This document shows positions 55,698 through 64,000 of a stretch of 64,000 nt of DNA, one piece after another. The notes under the pieces are model-generated. The model made no database searches. It was not told the DNA's origin and saw only the letters and a list, made by a program, of their open reading frames with translations. This DNA comes from Paraburkholderia sp. BL10I2N1 (GTDB lineage: Bacteria; Pseudomonadota; Gammaproteobacteria; Burkholderiales; Burkholderiaceae), in NCBI RefSeq assembly GCF_004361815.1, contig NZ_SNWA01000001.1:1054001-1118000 (forward strand), written 5' to 3'. The position numbers and the translations under genes were made by a program. Each line of letters starts with the position of its first letter. Position 1 is the first letter of the stretch.

Positions 55698-55910
55698 CGC
55701 GACCCGCCCGGCGCGCTCAAGGCGATGCCAGTAAAGGTGACGCAAACGACGCAAAAAACTGAAGAATGAGCGGTCATCGAATCCTTTCCGTACGGCAAAA
55801 AGCGCACGTACCCAAGGACGAAACCGGCGGGCGAGGCCGGCCGGGCGTAACACGCATCCAGTAACGGATGCCGCCCGGCGGGGAAATGGAAGATGTGGAA
55901 ACTTCCGGAA

Positions 55911-56024
55911 ACTTCCCGCGCCGGTATTACCCGGATCGGGTGCGAAGGGTCTCTCTCAGCCTCGCCGCTGCCGTATCGACAACCCGCATCGACACCATAT
56001 GGCCCGCTTGCGAAGCACCCCTGT
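55911..56024 (-). promoter_or_regulatory. TPP (thi-box) riboswitch aptamer
   Basis: Read on the minus strand, the region has the conserved TPP aptamer parts in order: ACAGGGGTGC at the 5' P1/P2 side, GGCTGAGAGAGACCC (the CUGAGA core with the J2/4 contact), then ACCCGATCCGGGTAATACC and GGCGCGGGAAGT closing P1. The pyrimidine-sensing T-loop part CTGAGA and the pyrophosphate-binding GATCCGG are intact. A long insertion between 56010 and about 55970 extends P3. It leads 213 nt before the thiO start; repression of thiOSGE by TPP is expected. The rest of 55698-55910 holds an expression platform with a GGAAGTTTCC repeat. Confidence 0.93.
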
Positions 56025-58824: not shown

Positions 58825-58909
58825 TACTTCGGCTCGAAGCAACCGCCCCCTCTGCCCCAGCCTGGGCGACATCGAGGCAGCGTTGCACAGCAACGCCTTA
58901 GCAACCTCG

Positions 58910-58947
58910 GGAAACATCCGGAAAGCAACAAGAAGAGTTTGAAAGCA
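58910..58947. promoter_or_regulatory. GGAAAG-type element upstream of the exported-protein gene
   Basis: GGAAACATCCGGAAAGC (58910-58926) matches GGAAAGATTTGGAAAGC at 60273-60289 in 14 of 17 bases. GAAAGCA recurs at 58921 and 58941, 20 bp apart. The rest of the 242-base gap (58825-59066) shows no further feature. Tandem half-sites at about 10-bp spacing are typical for OmpR-family regulators. Confidence 0.45.
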
Positions 58948-59066
58948 CTTACGAAGCGCGCGGGCTGTTCGCCGCTTTGAAAAAGTCGCAGTGGAGCGAG
59001 TATTGGCATGCGCGCAGGCCATCGCGCGCCGCACGCTGCCACATCACTCGTTACCGGATTCCGCAT

Positions 59067-59552
59067 ATGTCACTCGACCGCCGCTCCAATCTTCTGCCCC
59101 ACCGTTTCGAACGCGCGAGCCGCTTCACCTTCGCACGTCAAGCCGCTGCGCTGGGTGCGGCAGCGTTGCTGCTGTCGGTGGCGCACGGCGCGCTCGCGAC
59201 CGAATCGGCCGATGTCTGCCCGGCGCTCAAACAGATCGTCGCCGCCTCCGATTTCAACCACTTGCGCAGCGAGCCTACCGCCCGGTTGCCAGGCGTTGCC
59301 GCGGCGGAAGATTGCCGCACGACCACCAACACGTTCGACTGCCACTGGCGCGCGCACTGGCCGGCCGATGGCGTCATCAACGATCCGCTCGAAGAAATGG
59401 GCGCGGACATCGCCGCGTGCCTGCCGAACGTGATCCACGACGTCAACACGCCGACGCGCCAGCACTTCGTCGTGACGGGCATGGACCGCCGCGTCTCCGT
59501 GACCGCGAGCGTCGTTGCGCCGAACGAACTGCGTCTACACATCACGCGTTAA
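59067..59552 (+). CDS. Exported protein of unknown function, 161 aa
   Basis: A 161-residue protein with an Arg-rich N-terminus and a hydrophobic segment (FARQAAALGAAALLLSVAHG) that looks like a signal peptide ending near ALATES. The mature part has four Cys (CPALKQI, EDCRTTT, DCHWRAHW, ACLPNV) that may form disulfides in the periplasm. I recognise no family. The ATG at 59067 is preferred over one at 58977, which would add 30 residues. It precedes a lipoprotein gene by about 48 bases and the first response regulator gene, on the same strand. Confidence 0.6.
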   Translation: MSLDRRSNLLPHRFERASRFTFARQAAALGAAALLLSVAHGALATESADVCPALKQIVAASDFNHLRSEPTARLPGVAAAEDCRTTTNTFDCHWRAHWPADGVINDPLEEMGADIAACLPNVIHDVNTPTRQHFVVTGMDRRVSVTASVVAPNELRLHITR

Positions 59553-59600
59553 CGCGCGGCCGCACGCGTGCTCCCAGCCGGCTCCGACCCTATTGCATCC

Positions 59601-60230
59601 ATGCCCGCCATCGCCATTCGCGCCCGCCTCGCGACCGCACGTGCCCCGCTTGCACGCGCTGCCCTGCGCCGGCGGGGCGCGAGCTTCGCGCTCGCCGCAT
59701 CGCTGGCGCTAGGGCTGAACGGCTGCGCGTGGACACTGATCACCGCCGCCGACGCCACCGGCTCGGTGATCCAGGCGGGCTACGCGATCGCGGGAAACTA
59801 TTCGTCGCCGACCTTCATCAATGGACGCCCTGCTTCGCTGCGCTCGATCTGCATTGAGTTGAATTCGACCGTTTCGGTCAGCGATTTCGTGCCTGCCCTG
59901 CAACTGGCACTCCAGCGGCGCGGCGTAGAGTCCAACGTCTATTACCCGGGCACCTCGCCGTCGAGTTGCGAGGCGCAGCTCGTCTACAACGCAGCCATCG
60001 ATTACGGGCGCCGTTCATTCTCTGACGAACCGAAGGCCTATCTTTCGATGATCGATCTCACGCTGCTGCAGCGTGGCCGCATTCTCGTCACTGCCCGTTA
60101 CGAAACCGGCGGCCTCGGCCTTGACCGTTTCTCGAACGCAACCACCAAGCTGACCGGATTGATCGACCGGATGGTGGTCGATCAACACGACCTCCCGCCC
60201 GAGACGGTCCAGACTTCGCAGGCCAACTGA
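59601..60230 (+). CDS. Putative lipoprotein of unknown function
   Basis: A 209-residue protein with an Arg-rich N-terminus, hydrophobic segment and lipobox LNGC (SFALAASLALGLNGCAW), so a lipid-anchored envelope protein is likely. The mature part (about 160 residues) is a soluble mixed alpha/beta domain with two Cys (CIELNSTVS, SSCEAQLVYN), fitting a disulfide. No family is recognised. The start could be the ATG at 59601 or a GTG at 59568. It lies between the exported-protein gene and the first response regulator and may be co-transcribed. Confidence 0.6.
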   Translation: MPAIAIRARLATARAPLARAALRRRGASFALAASLALGLNGCAWTLITAADATGSVIQAGYAIAGNYSSPTFINGRPASLRSICIELNSTVSVSDFVPALQLALQRRGVESNVYYPGTSPSSCEAQLVYNAAIDYGRRSFSDEPKAYLSMIDLTLLQRGRILVTARYETGGLGLDRFSNATTKLTGLIDRMVVDQHDLPPETVQTSQAN

Positions 60231-60252
60231 CCCTGGCCCGCCCAGGCTAAAA

Positions 60253-60303
60253 CTTTCCGCGCCGCTCACGCTGGAAAGATTTGGAAAGCACTGCGCGCTT
60301 TCC
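60253..60303. promoter_or_regulatory. Cluster of four GGAAAG boxes upstream of the first response regulator
   Basis: GGAAAG occurs at 60273-60278 and 60283-60288 (10 bp apart) and in inverted form CTTTCC at 60253-60258 and 60298-60303. The 12-mer GGAAAGATTTGG (60273-60284) is identical to one on the minus strand at 63193-63204. A TAATAT box at 60322-60327 could be the -10 of the regulator gene, so the boxes lie where an activator or autoregulator would bind. Confidence 0.55.
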
Positions 60304-60334
60304 TGCGCTGCGATCAATCCTTAATATCGGCCGC

Positions 60335-61099
60335 ATGAGCAAACATATCCTGATTGTCGACGACGACCCGGTGGTCCGCGACCTCGTGCGTGAGTATCTG
60401 CAATCGCGCGGCTATGCGGTGTCGGTGCTGCATCACGGCATGGGTCTGCAACGTCGCCTGCAGGTCGAGCGGCCGGACCTCGTGGTGCTCGACATCATGA
60501 TGCCGGAGCTGGACGGCATCAGCGCGCTGCGCACACTGCGCATCGCCGGCGACGAGATTCCGGTGATCCTGCTGACTGCGCGCGCCGATGTGATCGATCG
60601 CGTCATCGGCCTCGAACTCGGCGCCGACGACTATCTCGGCAAGCCGTTCGATCCGAGCGAGCTGGTCGCGCGCATCCGCACGGTGCTGCGACGTCGCGGC
60701 ATCGTGCCGCTGTCGGGCGCGGCACCCGAGCAGCGGGCGCCGTATCGCTTCGGACGTTTCGAGATCAACTTCCCGGCGCGCGAGTTGCGTCACGACGGCG
60801 AACGCATCCCGCTGCGCTCCAGCGAGTTCGCCATGCTAAAGATATTCGTCACTCACGCGATGACCGTGCTGACCCGCGCGCAATTGCTGGAGAAGCTTCA
60901 CGGCAGCAGTTCCGAGCACCGGAACCGGAGCCTCGATGTGTCGATCTGGCGTCTGCGGCGGCTGATCGAAATCGACCCGTCGGAGCCGCGCTACGTGCAG
61001 ACCGTGTGGGGACAGGGCTACGTCTTCGTGCCGGACGGCGAGATCGGCGCGGCCGAGCGCTGCATGCCGGCGTCCCCCAGCATCCAGGCTACCCCCTGA
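60335..61099 (+). CDS. OmpR-family response regulator (first of two paralogues)
   Basis: The 254-residue protein has a receiver domain (phospho-acceptor D53 in VVLDIMMPELDG, acidic pair DD at 9-10, T81 and K103) and a C-terminal winged-helix DNA-binding domain (YRFGRFEINFPARELRHDGE, LRSSEFAMLKIFV, NRSLDVSIWRLRRLIE, YVQTVWGQGYVF). The ATG at 60335 begins MSKHILIVDDDP; an ATG at 60281 would add 18 residues. No histidine kinase gene is adjacent. It is paralogous to the regulator at 63300: 73 of the first 110 residues are identical by my count. Confidence 0.93.
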   Translation: MSKHILIVDDDPVVRDLVREYLQSRGYAVSVLHHGMGLQRRLQVERPDLVVLDIMMPELDGISALRTLRIAGDEIPVILLTARADVIDRVIGLELGADDYLGKPFDPSELVARIRTVLRRRGIVPLSGAAPEQRAPYRFGRFEINFPARELRHDGERIPLRSSEFAMLKIFVTHAMTVLTRAQLLEKLHGSSSEHRNRSLDVSIWRLRRLIEIDPSEPRYVQTVWGQGYVFVPDGEIGAAERCMPASPSIQATP

Positions 61100-61146
61100 A
61101 GCGCGCCCGTGCGTGCGCCTCTCGCGTGCTGCGCACGCGAAATGCA

Positions 61147-61815
61147 TCAGAACGTCAGCACGCTCATGAAGAGTCGCTGCAGCCAGCCCATCGTCGTCGA
61201 ATCGGCCAGCATGCCCACCCCTGCCTGTTCGATGCGCGCATTGGCAACCTTGCTCGACGCGACATAGTTGCCGGCTTCGATGTCCTTCGGATTGACGATG
61301 CCCGACAGCCTCAGGCGATCGTTGTTGCCACCCATCGCGATCAGCTTTTCTCCCGACACGACGAGATTGCCGGTCGGCATCGTGCCTATCACCGTGACGG
61401 CCAGCGTGCCGGTCATGCCGTTCGTATCGGAGATCGCGCCTTTCCCGTTGAACGTCGTGGCCGCCGAGCCGATGTTGAAAAGTCTGGCGAGCCGGGCGGC
61501 GGTGCCCGTCGATTTGTCGGCCGCCTCGGCCGTGATTTCACTCGCGCGGCTCGCGGATGCGTTCGCGCTGTTGCTTCCGGTGTAAGCCTCCGACAGTCGG
61601 ATCGTGAGCACGTCGCCGATGCGTTGCGCGCGCGGCGTTTCGTAGAACAGCAGCGAATTGCCCGCCTGATAGATCGCGCCCTGCGAGTTGACGTTAAGCG
61701 GCGCGGACGCGAGCGGCGGCGTCATCGGCGTATCGACGATCGATTGGGGCGGACTGACGCACGCGGCGCAGGACGTCGTCGCGAGGATGGCCGCAATGAG
61801 ACGAAGTGGAATCAT
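61147..61815 (-). CDS. flgH: FlgH-like flagellar L-ring lipoprotein, orphan
   Basis: The 222-residue protein follows FlgH over its length: LLFYETPRAQRIGDVLTIRL, SNSANASASR, FNGKGAISDTNGMTGTLAVT, GNLVVSGEKLIAM, RLSGIVNPKDIEAGNYVASS and the C-terminal ARIEQAGVGMLADSTTMGWL. FlgH forms the L-ring in the outer membrane around the flagellar rod. The signal has Cys16 and Cys19, either of which could be lipid-modified. Normally flgH lies in flgFGHI; here no other flagellar gene is near. It ends an apparent four-gene minus-strand set flanked by two response regulators. Confidence 0.88.
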   Translation of the reverse strand: MIPLRLIAAILATTSCAACVSPPQSIVDTPMTPPLASAPLNVNSQGAIYQAGNSLLFYETPRAQRIGDVLTIRLSEAYTGSNSANASASRASEITAEAADKSTGTAARLARLFNIGSAATTFNGKGAISDTNGMTGTLAVTVIGTMPTGNLVVSGEKLIAMGGNNDRLRLSGIVNPKDIEAGNYVASSKVANARIEQAGVGMLADSTTMGWLQRLFMSVLTF

Positions 61816-61868
61816 GGGTAGTCCCGATCTATGGTGAACATCGGAGCCGGAAGAAAGCAAACCAGGCT

Positions 61869-62606
61869 TCAACCCGCGTCCGGGCTGCTGGCCTGCCATT
61901 GCCGCGCAACCGACTTGACCCACGCGGCCGGGTCTTTCAGCAGGTAAGTGAGCGTGCCGTTGCGCGTTCCTGGCAGAAAACACAGCGTGATCGAACTCAC
62001 CGCGTTCTCCCACACGTAGACCGGCATCGCTGCGCCCGCCGAAACCGCTTCGGCAGACGACACAGCACGCGCTGGCATCCGCGGCGCGCCGTAGCGGTCT
62101 GCGAGCGCCGCGCGCAGGTCGTTCGCCGTGAGCTCGTCGACGACGAACGAGATCTCGTACAGGCGGAACGACGTTTCTCCGGCCGCCCGTGCGAAGCGCA
62201 GCACGTGATCCTGCGCCGGCGCGCCATCGACGACCGCGCGCGACAGTTGCCAACTCTCGTCCGACCGGTGCGCCCAACGGCAGGCGACGGTGAGACTGTT
62301 GTCCGTCTTCAAGCCCATGCCGAGCGCGCCCGCCATCACGTCAGTCTCGCAGACCGGCACGCTGCCGGGCGGGGTCGCGCGGACCGGCTGGTTGGCGCGA
62401 AACGAATCGAGCGTAATGCCAAGCGGAATTCCGCGAAATGCGAAGGGCTCGTCCTTGATGCGCTTGCGCGCATCCAGCATCGCGGACTTCGCCGGGCTTC
62501 GATGGGACTTCGCCGGAGGCTCCGGCTCATGAGCGCTCGAGAGGGTCGCGACGCACAAGATCCCCGCGAGCAGCAGAGCGATACGGACGGACAGTCGGGT
62601 GTTCAT
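61869..62606 (-). CDS. Exported protein of unknown function, 245 aa
   Basis: A 245-residue protein with a signal peptide (MNTRLSVRIALLLAGILCVA, cleaved near SSAHEP), then a Pro/Lys-rich linker and a mature domain of about 190 residues with three Cys (VCETDVM, VACRWAH, LCFLPG). I recognise no family. It lies 53 bases upstream of the FlgH-like gene on the same strand and downstream of two small genes. The context suggests a periplasmic partner of the FlgH-like ring, an inference only. Confidence 0.7.
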   Translation of the reverse strand: MNTRLSVRIALLLAGILCVATLSSAHEPEPPAKSHRSPAKSAMLDARKRIKDEPFAFRGIPLGITLDSFRANQPVRATPPGSVPVCETDVMAGALGMGLKTDNSLTVACRWAHRSDESWQLSRAVVDGAPAQDHVLRFARAAGETSFRLYEISFVVDELTANDLRAALADRYGAPRMPARAVSSAEAVSAGAAMPVYVWENAVSSITLCFLPGTRNGTLTYLLKDPAAWVKSVARQWQASSPDAG

Positions 62607-62609
62607 CGT

Positions 62610-62816
62610 TCAGTCGATGGCTGCTGCGCACGCATCGAACGGCACCGCTGCGGCGTGGCCCACCACGGGCACGATTTTCAGCGTGGCCGCGCTCAGGCGG
62701 CACGGCAACGCGGCAACGGCGCAGCCGCCTAGCGGCAGCAGCGTCGCGCCAAGCGCCAGCCATGCGGCCATGCACGCGCATCGGTTGAGGGATTTTGCAA
62801 ATCGCACGTCGCGCAC
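62610..62816 (-). CDS. Small putative lipoprotein
   Basis: A 68-residue protein (GTG start at 62816) with a basic n-region RFAKSLNR, a hydrophobic stretch and the lipobox LGGC (LGATLLPLGGCAVAALPC), so a lipid-anchored protein of about 37 mature residues is likely. Other possible starts are GTG at 62807 and ATG at 62771. Three Cys occur in the mature part. No family recognised. It begins 8 bases after the stop of the Pro/Thr-rich peptide gene and ends 3 bases before the next gene starts, which supports an operon. Confidence 0.55.
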   Translation of the reverse strand: MRDVRFAKSLNRCACMAAWLALGATLLPLGGCAVAALPCRLSAATLKIVPVVGHAAAVPFDACAAAID

Positions 62817-62824
62817 CGGTAATC

Positions 62825-63007
62825 TCAGGCCGTCGTATCGACGTGATTGCCGACAAGACCGGTCGGCAAGGTCGGCGCCGGCGTGCTGGATTCGGGGGTA
62901 GTGGGTCGGGTAGCGGTCGTGCTTTCGCCCGACGGCTTCCCGGTTGGGCGTGTGGCCGGCTTCAGCGATGGAATGCTGGGCGCCTTGAAATTGCCTTGAA
63001 TGGTCAT
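62825..63007 (-). CDS. 60-aa Pro/Thr-rich peptide
   Basis: A 60-codon frame whose product starts MTIQGNFKAPSIPSLKPATR and continues with many Thr, Pro and Ser to NHVDTTA. No signal peptide or membrane segment. GAGG lies six bases before the ATG and the lipoprotein gene follows after eight bases, so it is probably translated as first gene of the set. I recognise no family; disordered linkers of this type are found in exported or ring-associated proteins, but no function is claimed. Confidence 0.55.
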   Translation of the reverse strand: MTIQGNFKAPSIPSLKPATRPTGKPSGESTTATRPTTPESSTPAPTLPTGLVGNHVDTTA

Positions 63008-63192
63008 GGTAAGCCTCGCGTGTCACGTGTCGTTCAGAGGGAGCGCCGCGTACCGGGCATCCGCAGGTTCGCGGAAACCCATGTGGCAGCAGGAACGTAC
63101 TGCGTGACGAATCATCCCGCCCCGAGTGCGGGCGCGAAGCAGGAAGGAACGCGTGCTTTTCGCCGGTGCTTACGAGCCGTTTCGGGTAGCTC

Positions 63193-63216
63193 CCAAATCT
63201 TTCCCGGGAAGGATTT
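63193..63216. promoter_or_regulatory. 22-bp near-palindrome containing the GGAAAG element
   Basis: AAATCTTTCCC followed directly by GGGAAGGATTT (63195-63216) is an inverted repeat with one mismatch in 11. The minus-strand reading GGAAAGATTTGG (63193-63204) is identical to 60273-60284. It lies in the 292-base gap between the divergent Pro/Thr peptide gene and the second response regulator and can serve both. Confidence 0.55.
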
Positions 63217-63299
63217 CGTACGACGATTGACGGAGCGTCGTAAGTGTTGGTAAGGAAAACTGTTACCTCGAAATTCGCTCGCCGGTCTAGAATTTCGCG

Positions 63300-64000
63300 A
63301 TGAATCCACAGGTCCTAATCGTCGACGACGACCCGGTCGTACGCGATCTGCTTTGCCGCTTCCTGCAATCGAACGGGCTTGATGCATCCGTGCTGCATGA
63401 CGGCACCCATCTGCAGCGGCGGCTCGAACGCGAACGCCCGTCGGTCGTCGTGCTCGACATCATGATGCCGGACACCGACGGCCTGCGCGCGCTCACCGCG
63501 CTGCGCGCCGCGGGCGACGACATCCCGGTCATTTTCGTCACCGCGCGCGGCACGGTCGCGGATCGCATCGTCGGTCTGTCGCTCGGCGCCGACGATTATC
63601 TGACGAAGCCCTTCGACCCCCGCGAACTTCTGGCGCGCATCCATACCGTGCTGCGCCGGCGCGGGCCGGCCACGACAAGCGCACCGGAGGCCCGCAAGCG
63701 TTTCAGCTTCGGTCCGTTCGAACTCGACTTCACGACGCGCACCCTGCTGCGCGACGGCAACCGGCTCGCGTTGCGCGACAGCGAATTCGCGCTCCTGAAG
63801 ATCTTCGTCAACAATCCGTACAAGGTGCTCTCGCGTGTACTGATCCACGATCTCGTGCACCGCGACGACCTCGCCTTTCGCGATCGCAGTCTCGATGTGC
63901 CCATCTGGCGACTGCGCCGCGTGATCGAGGACGACCCGTCGAATCCGTGCTACGTGCAGACCGTGCGCGGCAAGGGCTATGTGTTCGTGCCCGACGCTGA
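63300..64000 (+). CDS. OmpR-family response regulator (second paralogue, 3' end beyond window)
   Basis: The frame is open from ATG 63300 to the last base, 233 codons plus two bases. It has a receiver domain with D53 (VVLDIMMPDTDG), T81 and K103 at the same positions as the first regulator and the winged-helix domain (FSFGPFELDFTTRTLLRDGN, LRDSEFALLKIFV, RSLDVPIWRLRRVIE, YVQTVRGKGYVFVP). The two are 66% identical over 110 residues by hand count, so a duplication is likely. It probably ends a few codons past the window. No kinase seen. Confidence 0.92.
   Translation, partial: MNPQVLIVDDDPVVRDLLCRFLQSNGLDASVLHDGTHLQRRLERERPSVVVLDIMMPDTDGLRALTALRAAGDDIPVIFVTARGTVADRIVGLSLGADDYLTKPFDPRELLARIHTVLRRRGPATTSAPEARKRFSFGPFELDFTTRTLLRDGNRLALRDSEFALLKIFVNNPYKVLSRVLIHDLVHRDDLAFRDRSLDVPIWRLRRVIEDDPSNPCYVQTVRGKGYVFVPDA

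Follow-up and report, generated by a model that had tools for sequence, protein, structure and literature searches.

An OmpR-type envelope module in Paraburkholderia with two closely related putative operators and a candidate small RNA

Introduction

Why do the promoters of two paralogous response regulator genes, and of the envelope genes lying between them, carry such similar A-rich boxes? The question is raised by a locus of Paraburkholderia sp. BL10I2N1 (Burkholderiaceae), which occupies the end of a 64,000-nucleotide window, the whole stretch of DNA analysed here (assembly GCF_004361815.1, contig NZ_SNWA01000001.1, positions 1,054,001 to 1,118,000). The locus encodes two OmpR-type response regulators, here called RR1 and RR2, together with putative envelope proteins and, just beyond the window, an EnvZ-like kinase. 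An initial annotation proposed that a single shared element, GGAAAG, marks three promoter regions of this module and that one or both regulators control the set, including themselves. We find that the boxes are conserved across the genus at fixed positions, and that they fall into two closely related types. It is rather likely, in our judgement, that they are the operators of the two paralogous OmpR-type regulators, through which these would control their own genes and one envelope module.

Boxes before the two regulator genes

The principal evidence comes from comparison within the genus. Thirty-nine genus genomes were queried with RR1, and the locus was taken from the 28 that have a close relative of RR1, giving 29 loci with that of the host genome (9.2 Mb), whose window proteins find their best named matches in Paraburkholderia. 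The gene order is p161, p220 and RR1 rightward; FlgH-like, p245, DUF6726 and a 60-aa small open reading frame (smORF) leftward; and RR2 and the kinase rightward. It is kept, with minor gaps, in 22 of the 29 loci (the host and 21 relatives). The other seven (L059 to L065) differ in that RR2 and the kinase have moved or been inverted, and RR2 was not found in L059. The regulator genes and their promoter elements lie in the window as follows:

60274..60288 (+), RR1 box, GAAAG-N5-GAAAG
60322..60327 (+), RR1 -10 hexamer, TAATAT, last base 7 nt before the ATG
60335..61099 (+), RR1, OmpR-type response regulator, without an adjacent kinase gene here
63240..63254 (+), RR2 box, GTAAG-N5-GTAAG
63288..63293 (+), RR2 -10 hexamer, TAGAAT, last base 6 nt before the ATG
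63300..64000 (+), RR2, OmpR-type response regulator, continuing beyond the window end

In 25 of 29 loci RR1 is preceded, at -60/-61, by a box of the form GWAAG-N5-GWAAG. It consists of GAAAG twice in 23 of these, and of GAAAG followed by GTAAG in the remaining two (L063, L064). The four misses are near-matches, with AAAAG (L056) or GAAAT (L059) as the first half-site or GGAAG as the second (L060, L062). Box start and -10 hexamer are 48 bp apart in all 24 promoters in which both elements were recognised. The same pair precedes RR2 in 24 of 28 loci (L059 left out; misses in L045, L063, L064 and L065), again at 48 bp in 22 of 24 and at 58 bp, one turn more, in L060 and L062; the L061 promoter offers both spacings. 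Information per base is 1.88 in the RR1 box against 0.66 in the preceding 35 bp, and 1.96 against 0.36 for RR2 (each in 21 of 22 standard-order loci), values that were computed over box-bearing loci, a selection that favours the box.

Across loci, the RR1 -10 hexamer ends 6-7 nt before the ATG, so that transcription should begin at the start codon or right beside it. The RR1 and RR2 mRNAs thus look leaderless. Judged by eye, the -10 hexamers of genes for a third paralog, introduced below as the OmpR ortholog, likewise lie 6-7 nt before the ATG. Transcriptional regulators have been reported to be over-represented among the leaderless transcripts of Burkholderia cenocepacia (PMC4603805).

Regulators and their half-sites

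Both regulators match the receiver domain (PF00072) and the winged-helix Trans_reg_C domain (PF00486) above cut-off. Their best model of all is NCBIfam OmpR (NF007005), at 275.4 bits for RR1 and 257.2 bits for RR2, below its cut-off of 331 bits. The third paralog, about 62% identical to RR1, scores 314.1 and 312.5 bits, also below 331, and we take it as the OmpR ortholog of the genus. Its genes are preceded by GTAAC-N5-GTAAC in 11 of 13 named loci (no exact pair in L110 and L112; L121 was left out of the scan) and in six of seven genus stretches, the seventh being cut by its start call. The three proteins also differ in the recognition helix. Residue 203, the x of LDVxIWRLRR, is S (28) or A (8) in 36/36 RR1 proteins and P in 27/27 RR2 proteins, while the helix of the OmpR orthologs reads IDVxVWRLRR with Q in 12/12. 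These counts cover proteins with the motif, which is missing from one RR1 and one RR2, both of L045.

Taken together, these patterns suggest that the GAAAG box and the GTAAG box are each probably read by their own regulator. More tentatively, we propose that three paralogous regulators split one operator by one-base steps (GAAAG, GTAAG and GTAAC, with constant N5) alongside a single helix-residue change (S/A, P and Q), that mixed arrays at the envelope operons read combinations of them, and that one regulator has a dedicated small RNA beside its kinase. This fuller scheme is possible; we would not yet bet on it.

A competing explanation accepts OmpR-type operators and makes the OmpR ortholog, or another paralog, their main binder, so that RR1 and RR2 would be regulated by that binder rather than regulating the module. 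The arrays before the structural operons, described below, are rich in GNAAC units (GCAAC, GAAAC) resembling the GTAAC found before OmpR-ortholog genes, and in four of five genomes of the genus labelled g25 the small RNA described below carries GTAAC-containing boxes with no RR2 nearby. We nevertheless consider this explanation unlikely. The boxes at RR1 and RR2 are GAAAG or GTAAG, not GTAAC, in nearly every genus genome; they lie at equal distance to the -10 hexamer; the recognition helices of RR1 and RR2 differ; and self-regulation is the simplest account.

The EnvZ-like kinase encoded after RR2 finds its best model in NCBIfam EnvZ (NF007004; 187.9 bits, cut-off 415). In L059 the kinase gene adjoins RR1 divergently, and none of that genome's four RR1 matches looks RR2-like. 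This arrangement suggests that the EnvZ-like kinase may be able to serve RR1.

A candidate small RNA after the kinase gene

A scan of the loci for boxes gave a third conserved copy, in reverse orientation, directly after the kinase gene. Both features lie beyond the window:

L007:8035-9306, EnvZ-like kinase gene, after RR2
L007:9341-9456, small-RNA box and gene, directly after the kinase gene, about 1.3-1.5 kb beyond the window end

In 22 of 29 loci, the same 22 that keep the standard order, CTTAC-N5-CTTAC occurs 43-44 bp before TATAGT, and neither the box nor TATAGT was found after the kinase position in the remaining seven. After TATAGT come a hairpin, whose loop contains an invariant CTCG, and then an intrinsic terminator, which together outline a predicted RNA of about 60 nt. 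In the alignment of 22 sequences (20 distinct), a 13-pair model has 94.2% of its cells paired, and sliding the partners lowers this to 35.8-47.3%. Two-sided changes affect five of the 13 pairs, against a shuffle mean of 1.8. By eye, the first hairpin is shifted by one base in four sequences. Single-fold z-scores, calculated for four sequences, were -2.4, -4.2, -1.1 and -3.8. The conserved element looks like a small-RNA gene with promoter and terminator motifs of its own.

Could the conserved RNA be a mere terminator common to the convergent kinase and PTP genes? There is a strong hairpin with a T run between these genes, and RNAalifold, unaided, predicts that terminator helix alone. However, a terminator needs no extra 5' hairpin, let alone one with two-sided changes in three of five pairs and a CTCG loop, and it needs no conserved TATAGT and CTTAC repeat at a fixed distance. 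We therefore give this possibility a slim chance.

The covariance model R1 has one match, of 47.8-85 bits, in each of 22 of the 39 genus genomes, the next score being 31.3 bits. It also matches named contigs of P. fungorum, P. dilworthii and P. sp. BL25I1N1. Family-wide, matches at 1e-6 come from 14 of 80 genomes, including three of this genus, in a search whose stricter filters can lose weak matches. The kinase and an RR2 relative (66%) precede the small RNA in G089 (genus g17), where the CTTAC pair is present; in genus g14, RR2 and the kinase stand before it in two of three genomes (G051, G087), with the box GTAAT-N5-GTAAG. All five sampled g25 genomes (L246-L250) have the small RNA, at 30-39 bits, and its box there reads GTAAC-N5-GTAAG in L247 and GTAAC-N5-GTAAA in L248-L250, and is absent in L246. 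Matches in L251, L252 and L253 were set aside, as they look like chance or terminator matches. No Rfam family reaches threshold with the small RNA. Atu_C7 comes closest, at 24.3 bits where 45 are required (E 0.00088 for 401 bases), and matches at gathering score in nine loci are TPP riboswitches alone.

Phased arrays at the two structural operons

Boxes of the same kind, extended into longer arrays, face the two operons of putative envelope genes:

58901..58945 (+), five phased half-sites ahead of the p161-p220 operon
59067..59552 (+), p161, a small protein, probably secreted; named matches in Paraburkholderia, one Trinickia and one Burkholderia sp.
59568..60230 (+), p220, putative lipoprotein, resembling the NCBIfam Sbal_3080 family below cut-off (56 vs 80 bits)
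61147..61815 (-), FlgH-like (L-ring protein family) gene
61869..62606 (-), p245, putative secreted protein
62610..62810 (-), DUF6726 gene, the C-terminal portion of a family-matching open reading frame at 62610-63026
62825..63007 (-), conserved 60-aa smORF, first gene in the leftward operon, C-terminal LVGNHVDTTA
63169..63203 (-), phased array facing the leftward flgH-like operon, including most of 63193-63204
63195..63216, 22-bp inverted repeat

The p161 array is made up of GCAAC, GAAAC, GAAAG, AGAAG and GAAAG in exact 10-bp steps, and covers 58910-58926. Its anchor was found in 18 of 22 aligned loci (L055, L056, L057 and L059 were skipped), in which 48 of 53 matching words share one 10-bp phase. 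The array is still visible by eye in L055 and L056. The leftward array has the units GAAAG, a degenerate GGAGC, GAAAC and GTAAG, also at exact 10-bp steps. Its anchor was found in 22/22 loci, as GTAAG in 19 and as GGAAG, GTAAT and GTAAC in one each, and 56 of the 63 further G.AA[GC] words within 60 bp share a single 10-bp phase. A pattern search located a distal GAAA unit in 20 of the 22 loci; it lies 30 bp from the anchor in seven, 50 bp in 11, and 40 and 48 bp in one each. A shift of 20 bp that preserves helical phase is hard to explain without proteins binding side by side.

The site at 63193-63204 is the distal half-site of this leftward array. It is real and conserved, and it faces the divergent flgH-like operon and not RR2. 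An apparent lack of conservation here proved to be an artefact of misalignment across an indel of about 110 bp, and longer minus-strand alignments show the conserved array. The overlapping inverted repeat fared less well. It is present in the host, with arms 63195-63206/63205-63216 that are 92% complementary. In the 300 bp before RR2, each of the 21 relatives deviates from it at no fewer than six of 22 positions, so it is private among the genomes compared, and chance similarity still holds as an account of it. Alignment of the same gaps in related genomes, proposed at the outset as a check, thus upholds the half-sites and not the inverted repeat.

AA steps repeated every 10 bp are the classic geometry of curved DNA. 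The arrays might accordingly be read as intrinsic curvature, or as UP-element-like sequence aiding RNA polymerase, with no specific regulator, all the more as the 10-bp AA repeat extends over 40-60 bp ahead of two operons. Yet the units are G.AA[GC] rather than A-tracts, their flanking G is conserved, and GTAAG interrupts an A-tract. Further, the two-unit boxes stand at a fixed 48 bp, and box type differs from gene to gene in a conserved manner. Curvature without a regulator is consequently very improbable.

The FlgH-like protein matches PF02107 at 160.9 bits, above cut-off, but reaches the cut-off of none of the 13 NCBIfam FlgH models that it matched. The host genome has two PF02107 genes, this one and another at C1:1289187. 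Of the 29 loci, 28 contain a relative, the sequence of L063 ending before it. The predicted structure of p245 has a mean predicted local distance difference test score of 70.5 and a predicted template modelling score of 0.64.

Chance statistics and the initial annotation

All strings and coordinates quoted in the initial annotation are correct. GGAAAGATTTGG occurs exactly at 60273-60284 (+) and 63193-63204 (-), its sole exact copies in the window, and six times genome-wide against once for the reversed control pattern. GGAAACATCCGGAAAGC (58910-58926) agrees with GGAAAGATTTGGAAAGC at 14/17 positions. With two mismatches allowed, the 12-mer shows no excess in the window (5 vs 3.2 expected). The window has two runs of three G.AA[GC] words in 10-bp phase, namely the array at 58901 and one at 55888, where 60 Markov resamples averaged 0.1 and never contained more than one. 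It has 14 runs of two, where the resamples averaged 6.4 and reached 12 at most. The word itself had been picked after the sites were seen. The run at 55888-55912 (+), with half-sites GGAAG, GAAAC and GAAAC, stands before an SbmA/BacA-like ABC transporter gene.

Conservation is stronger evidence for the boxes than these statistics. Chance likeness of A-rich words in promoter DNA, which would suit the unremarkable 12-mer count and a genome-wide one-mismatch motif close to its control, can practically be dismissed for the RR1, RR2, p161 and flgH-like promoters, where positions and spacing are fixed and conserved.

The initial annotation was thus well founded in seeing tandem half-sites of OmpR type, at 10-bp spacing, common to the promoters of one module including those of its regulators. 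Its GGAAAG elements are half-sites of conserved arrays in 10-bp phase, and in place of one element there are two close variants, which for the most part read GAAAG before RR1 and GTAAG before RR2. Its three promoter regions are not the full set, which also takes in RR2's own box at 63240-63254 and the small-RNA box outside the window. The proposal that one or both regulators control the module and themselves appears right in outline, with the details of the element revised.

The search for a wider regulon

A strict motif, GWAAGNNTTSGWAAG, was matched 88 times across the 39 genomes, where its reversed control scored 46; RR1 and RR2 promoters account for 41 of the 88. The rest are at background, so that no wider regulon is detectable, and the regulon is either local or built on looser sites. 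One-mismatch matches in the host genome hardly exceed controls (26 vs 18; 12 vs 9), and a genome-wide regulon search with degenerate patterns gave counts outside the locus equal to controls.

Host sites inspected individually include C1:4442399, C1:2784401, C3:445313 and C1:1120558. The last is a hybrid box, GTAAGGATTGGAAAG (L007:10559-10573), between tyrosine-phosphatase (PTP) and MFS genes, with no exact counterpart in the relatives fetched. A related box is conserved in DNA of about 65% identity in two genomes (L090, L208); in L090 it lies between a FlhC-like gene and a CAP-domain gene. A GTAAG pair is common to the alignable DNA of L188, L199 and L206. A sigma-54 site was also considered, and rejected by eye for its wrong GG-to-GC spacing relative to the consensus.

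Proposed mechanism and points against it

We propose that phosphorylated RR1 binds GAAAG-N5-GAAAG, and phosphorylated RR2 GTAAG-N5-GTAAG, both as head-to-tail dimers directly ahead of a weak -35 element. There, each would activate, rather than repress, a leaderless transcript of its own gene. At the structural operons (p161-p220, and smORF-DUF6726-p245-flgH-like), the longer mixed arrays would accommodate one or both regulators side by side, and perhaps the OmpR ortholog of the genus as well. RR2 may further drive the small RNA of about 60 nt encoded after its kinase, which would add a post-transcriptional arm, as OmrA/OmrB do for enteric OmpR. The sequences themselves show the conservation, spacing and phasing of the boxes, the covariation in the RNA and the parallel split of residue and half-site; binding, activation, the pairing of regulators with boxes, leaderless starts, kinase sharing and RNA function are inferred from them.

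Several observations weigh against this mechanism. The relatives share ancestry, so neither the conservation of the boxes nor their split represents independent events, and at least one named locus, L101 of P. dilworthii, is probably from the same genome as L044. Beyond residue 120, 30 listed positions tell the three groups apart, and residue 203 is only one of them; its link to GAAAG, GTAAG and GTAAC is therefore a correlation across three clades and not a demonstrated determinant. The split itself is unclean, given the GTAAG second half-sites before RR1 in L063 and L064 and the GGAAG in L060 and L062. Among four Caballeronia loci, RR2 is preceded by GTAAG-N5-GTAAC in two and by no exact pair in two. 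In all five g25 genomes the small RNA has neither RR2 nor kinase within about 4-7 kb. A local target search by duplex energy, over up to 12 start regions in six loci, gave no small-RNA target consistently past control, an SDR gene passing the 5% level in two of the six. To these must be added the unaided RNAalifold fold and the near-background motif counts given above.

Comparison with known systems

The enteric EnvZ/OmpR regulon offers the closest parallel, with an OmpR-family regulator, an EnvZ-like kinase, envelope genes, half-sites spaced near 10 bp and, here, a candidate small RNA. In enterics, OmrA/OmrB and MicF are under OmpR control. The Paraburkholderia module differs in having two paralogous regulators with different half-sites, one of them without a kinase gene of its own; in its predicted small-RNA gene directly after the kinase gene, which belongs to no Rfam family at threshold; in regulator mRNAs that appear to be leaderless; and in a FlgH-like protein among the putative targets. 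The CpxR box, GTAAA-N5-GTAAA, is also a pentamer direct repeat with N5 and differs in its last base, and the CpxR model fits both RR1 and RR2 worse than the OmpR model. The consensus reported for E. coli OmpR is TTTTACTTTTTG(A/T)AACATAT, with the central motif GXXAC or GXXXC (PMC5559549). These sites share the G.AA core and the spacing of about 10 bp between half-sites. The boxes at RR1 and RR2 depart from them as GXXXG (GAAAG, GTAAG), whereas the GNAAC units of the arrays agree and the OmpR-ortholog promoters of the genus keep GTAAC.

Two further systems bear on particular parts of the module. KdpE, a regulator of the OmpR/PhoB family, binds two direct-repeat half-sites and needs recognition-helix and wing residues to do so (PMC3264566). 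It is a different regulator, and its half-sites are AT-rich and 6 bp long. NcS25 is a conserved porin-regulating small RNA of Burkholderia, Paraburkholderia and Pandoraea (PMC10117139), and resembles our candidate as a conserved Burkholderiaceae small RNA tied to the outer membrane. It differs in that its gene lies beside a porin gene, and its main text uses neither the term two-component nor OmpR (PMC10117139). Both NcS25 and the BiofilmReg operon were weighed as known matches, and neither was accepted.

A search of one open-access library, which is not a full literature search, found no description of the module or of the RNA. The kind of module is known; as far as the searches made go, what appears new is its arrangement, the RNA and the division of the operator by one-base steps. 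The locus can be described as a conserved and probably self-regulating envelope module of OmpR type, with a pair of closely related putative operators and a candidate small RNA attached. It yields a candidate operator set for two regulators for which no description was found, and a small-RNA family, outside Rfam at threshold, with a predicted controller. Beyond these, it may represent a compact natural system in which to ask how response regulators that arose by duplication keep their DNA targets apart through single bases and yet share promoters. If true, the operator split would be a natural example of paralog insulation together with integration, set within an arrangement that otherwise recalls the enteric EnvZ/OmpR regulon.

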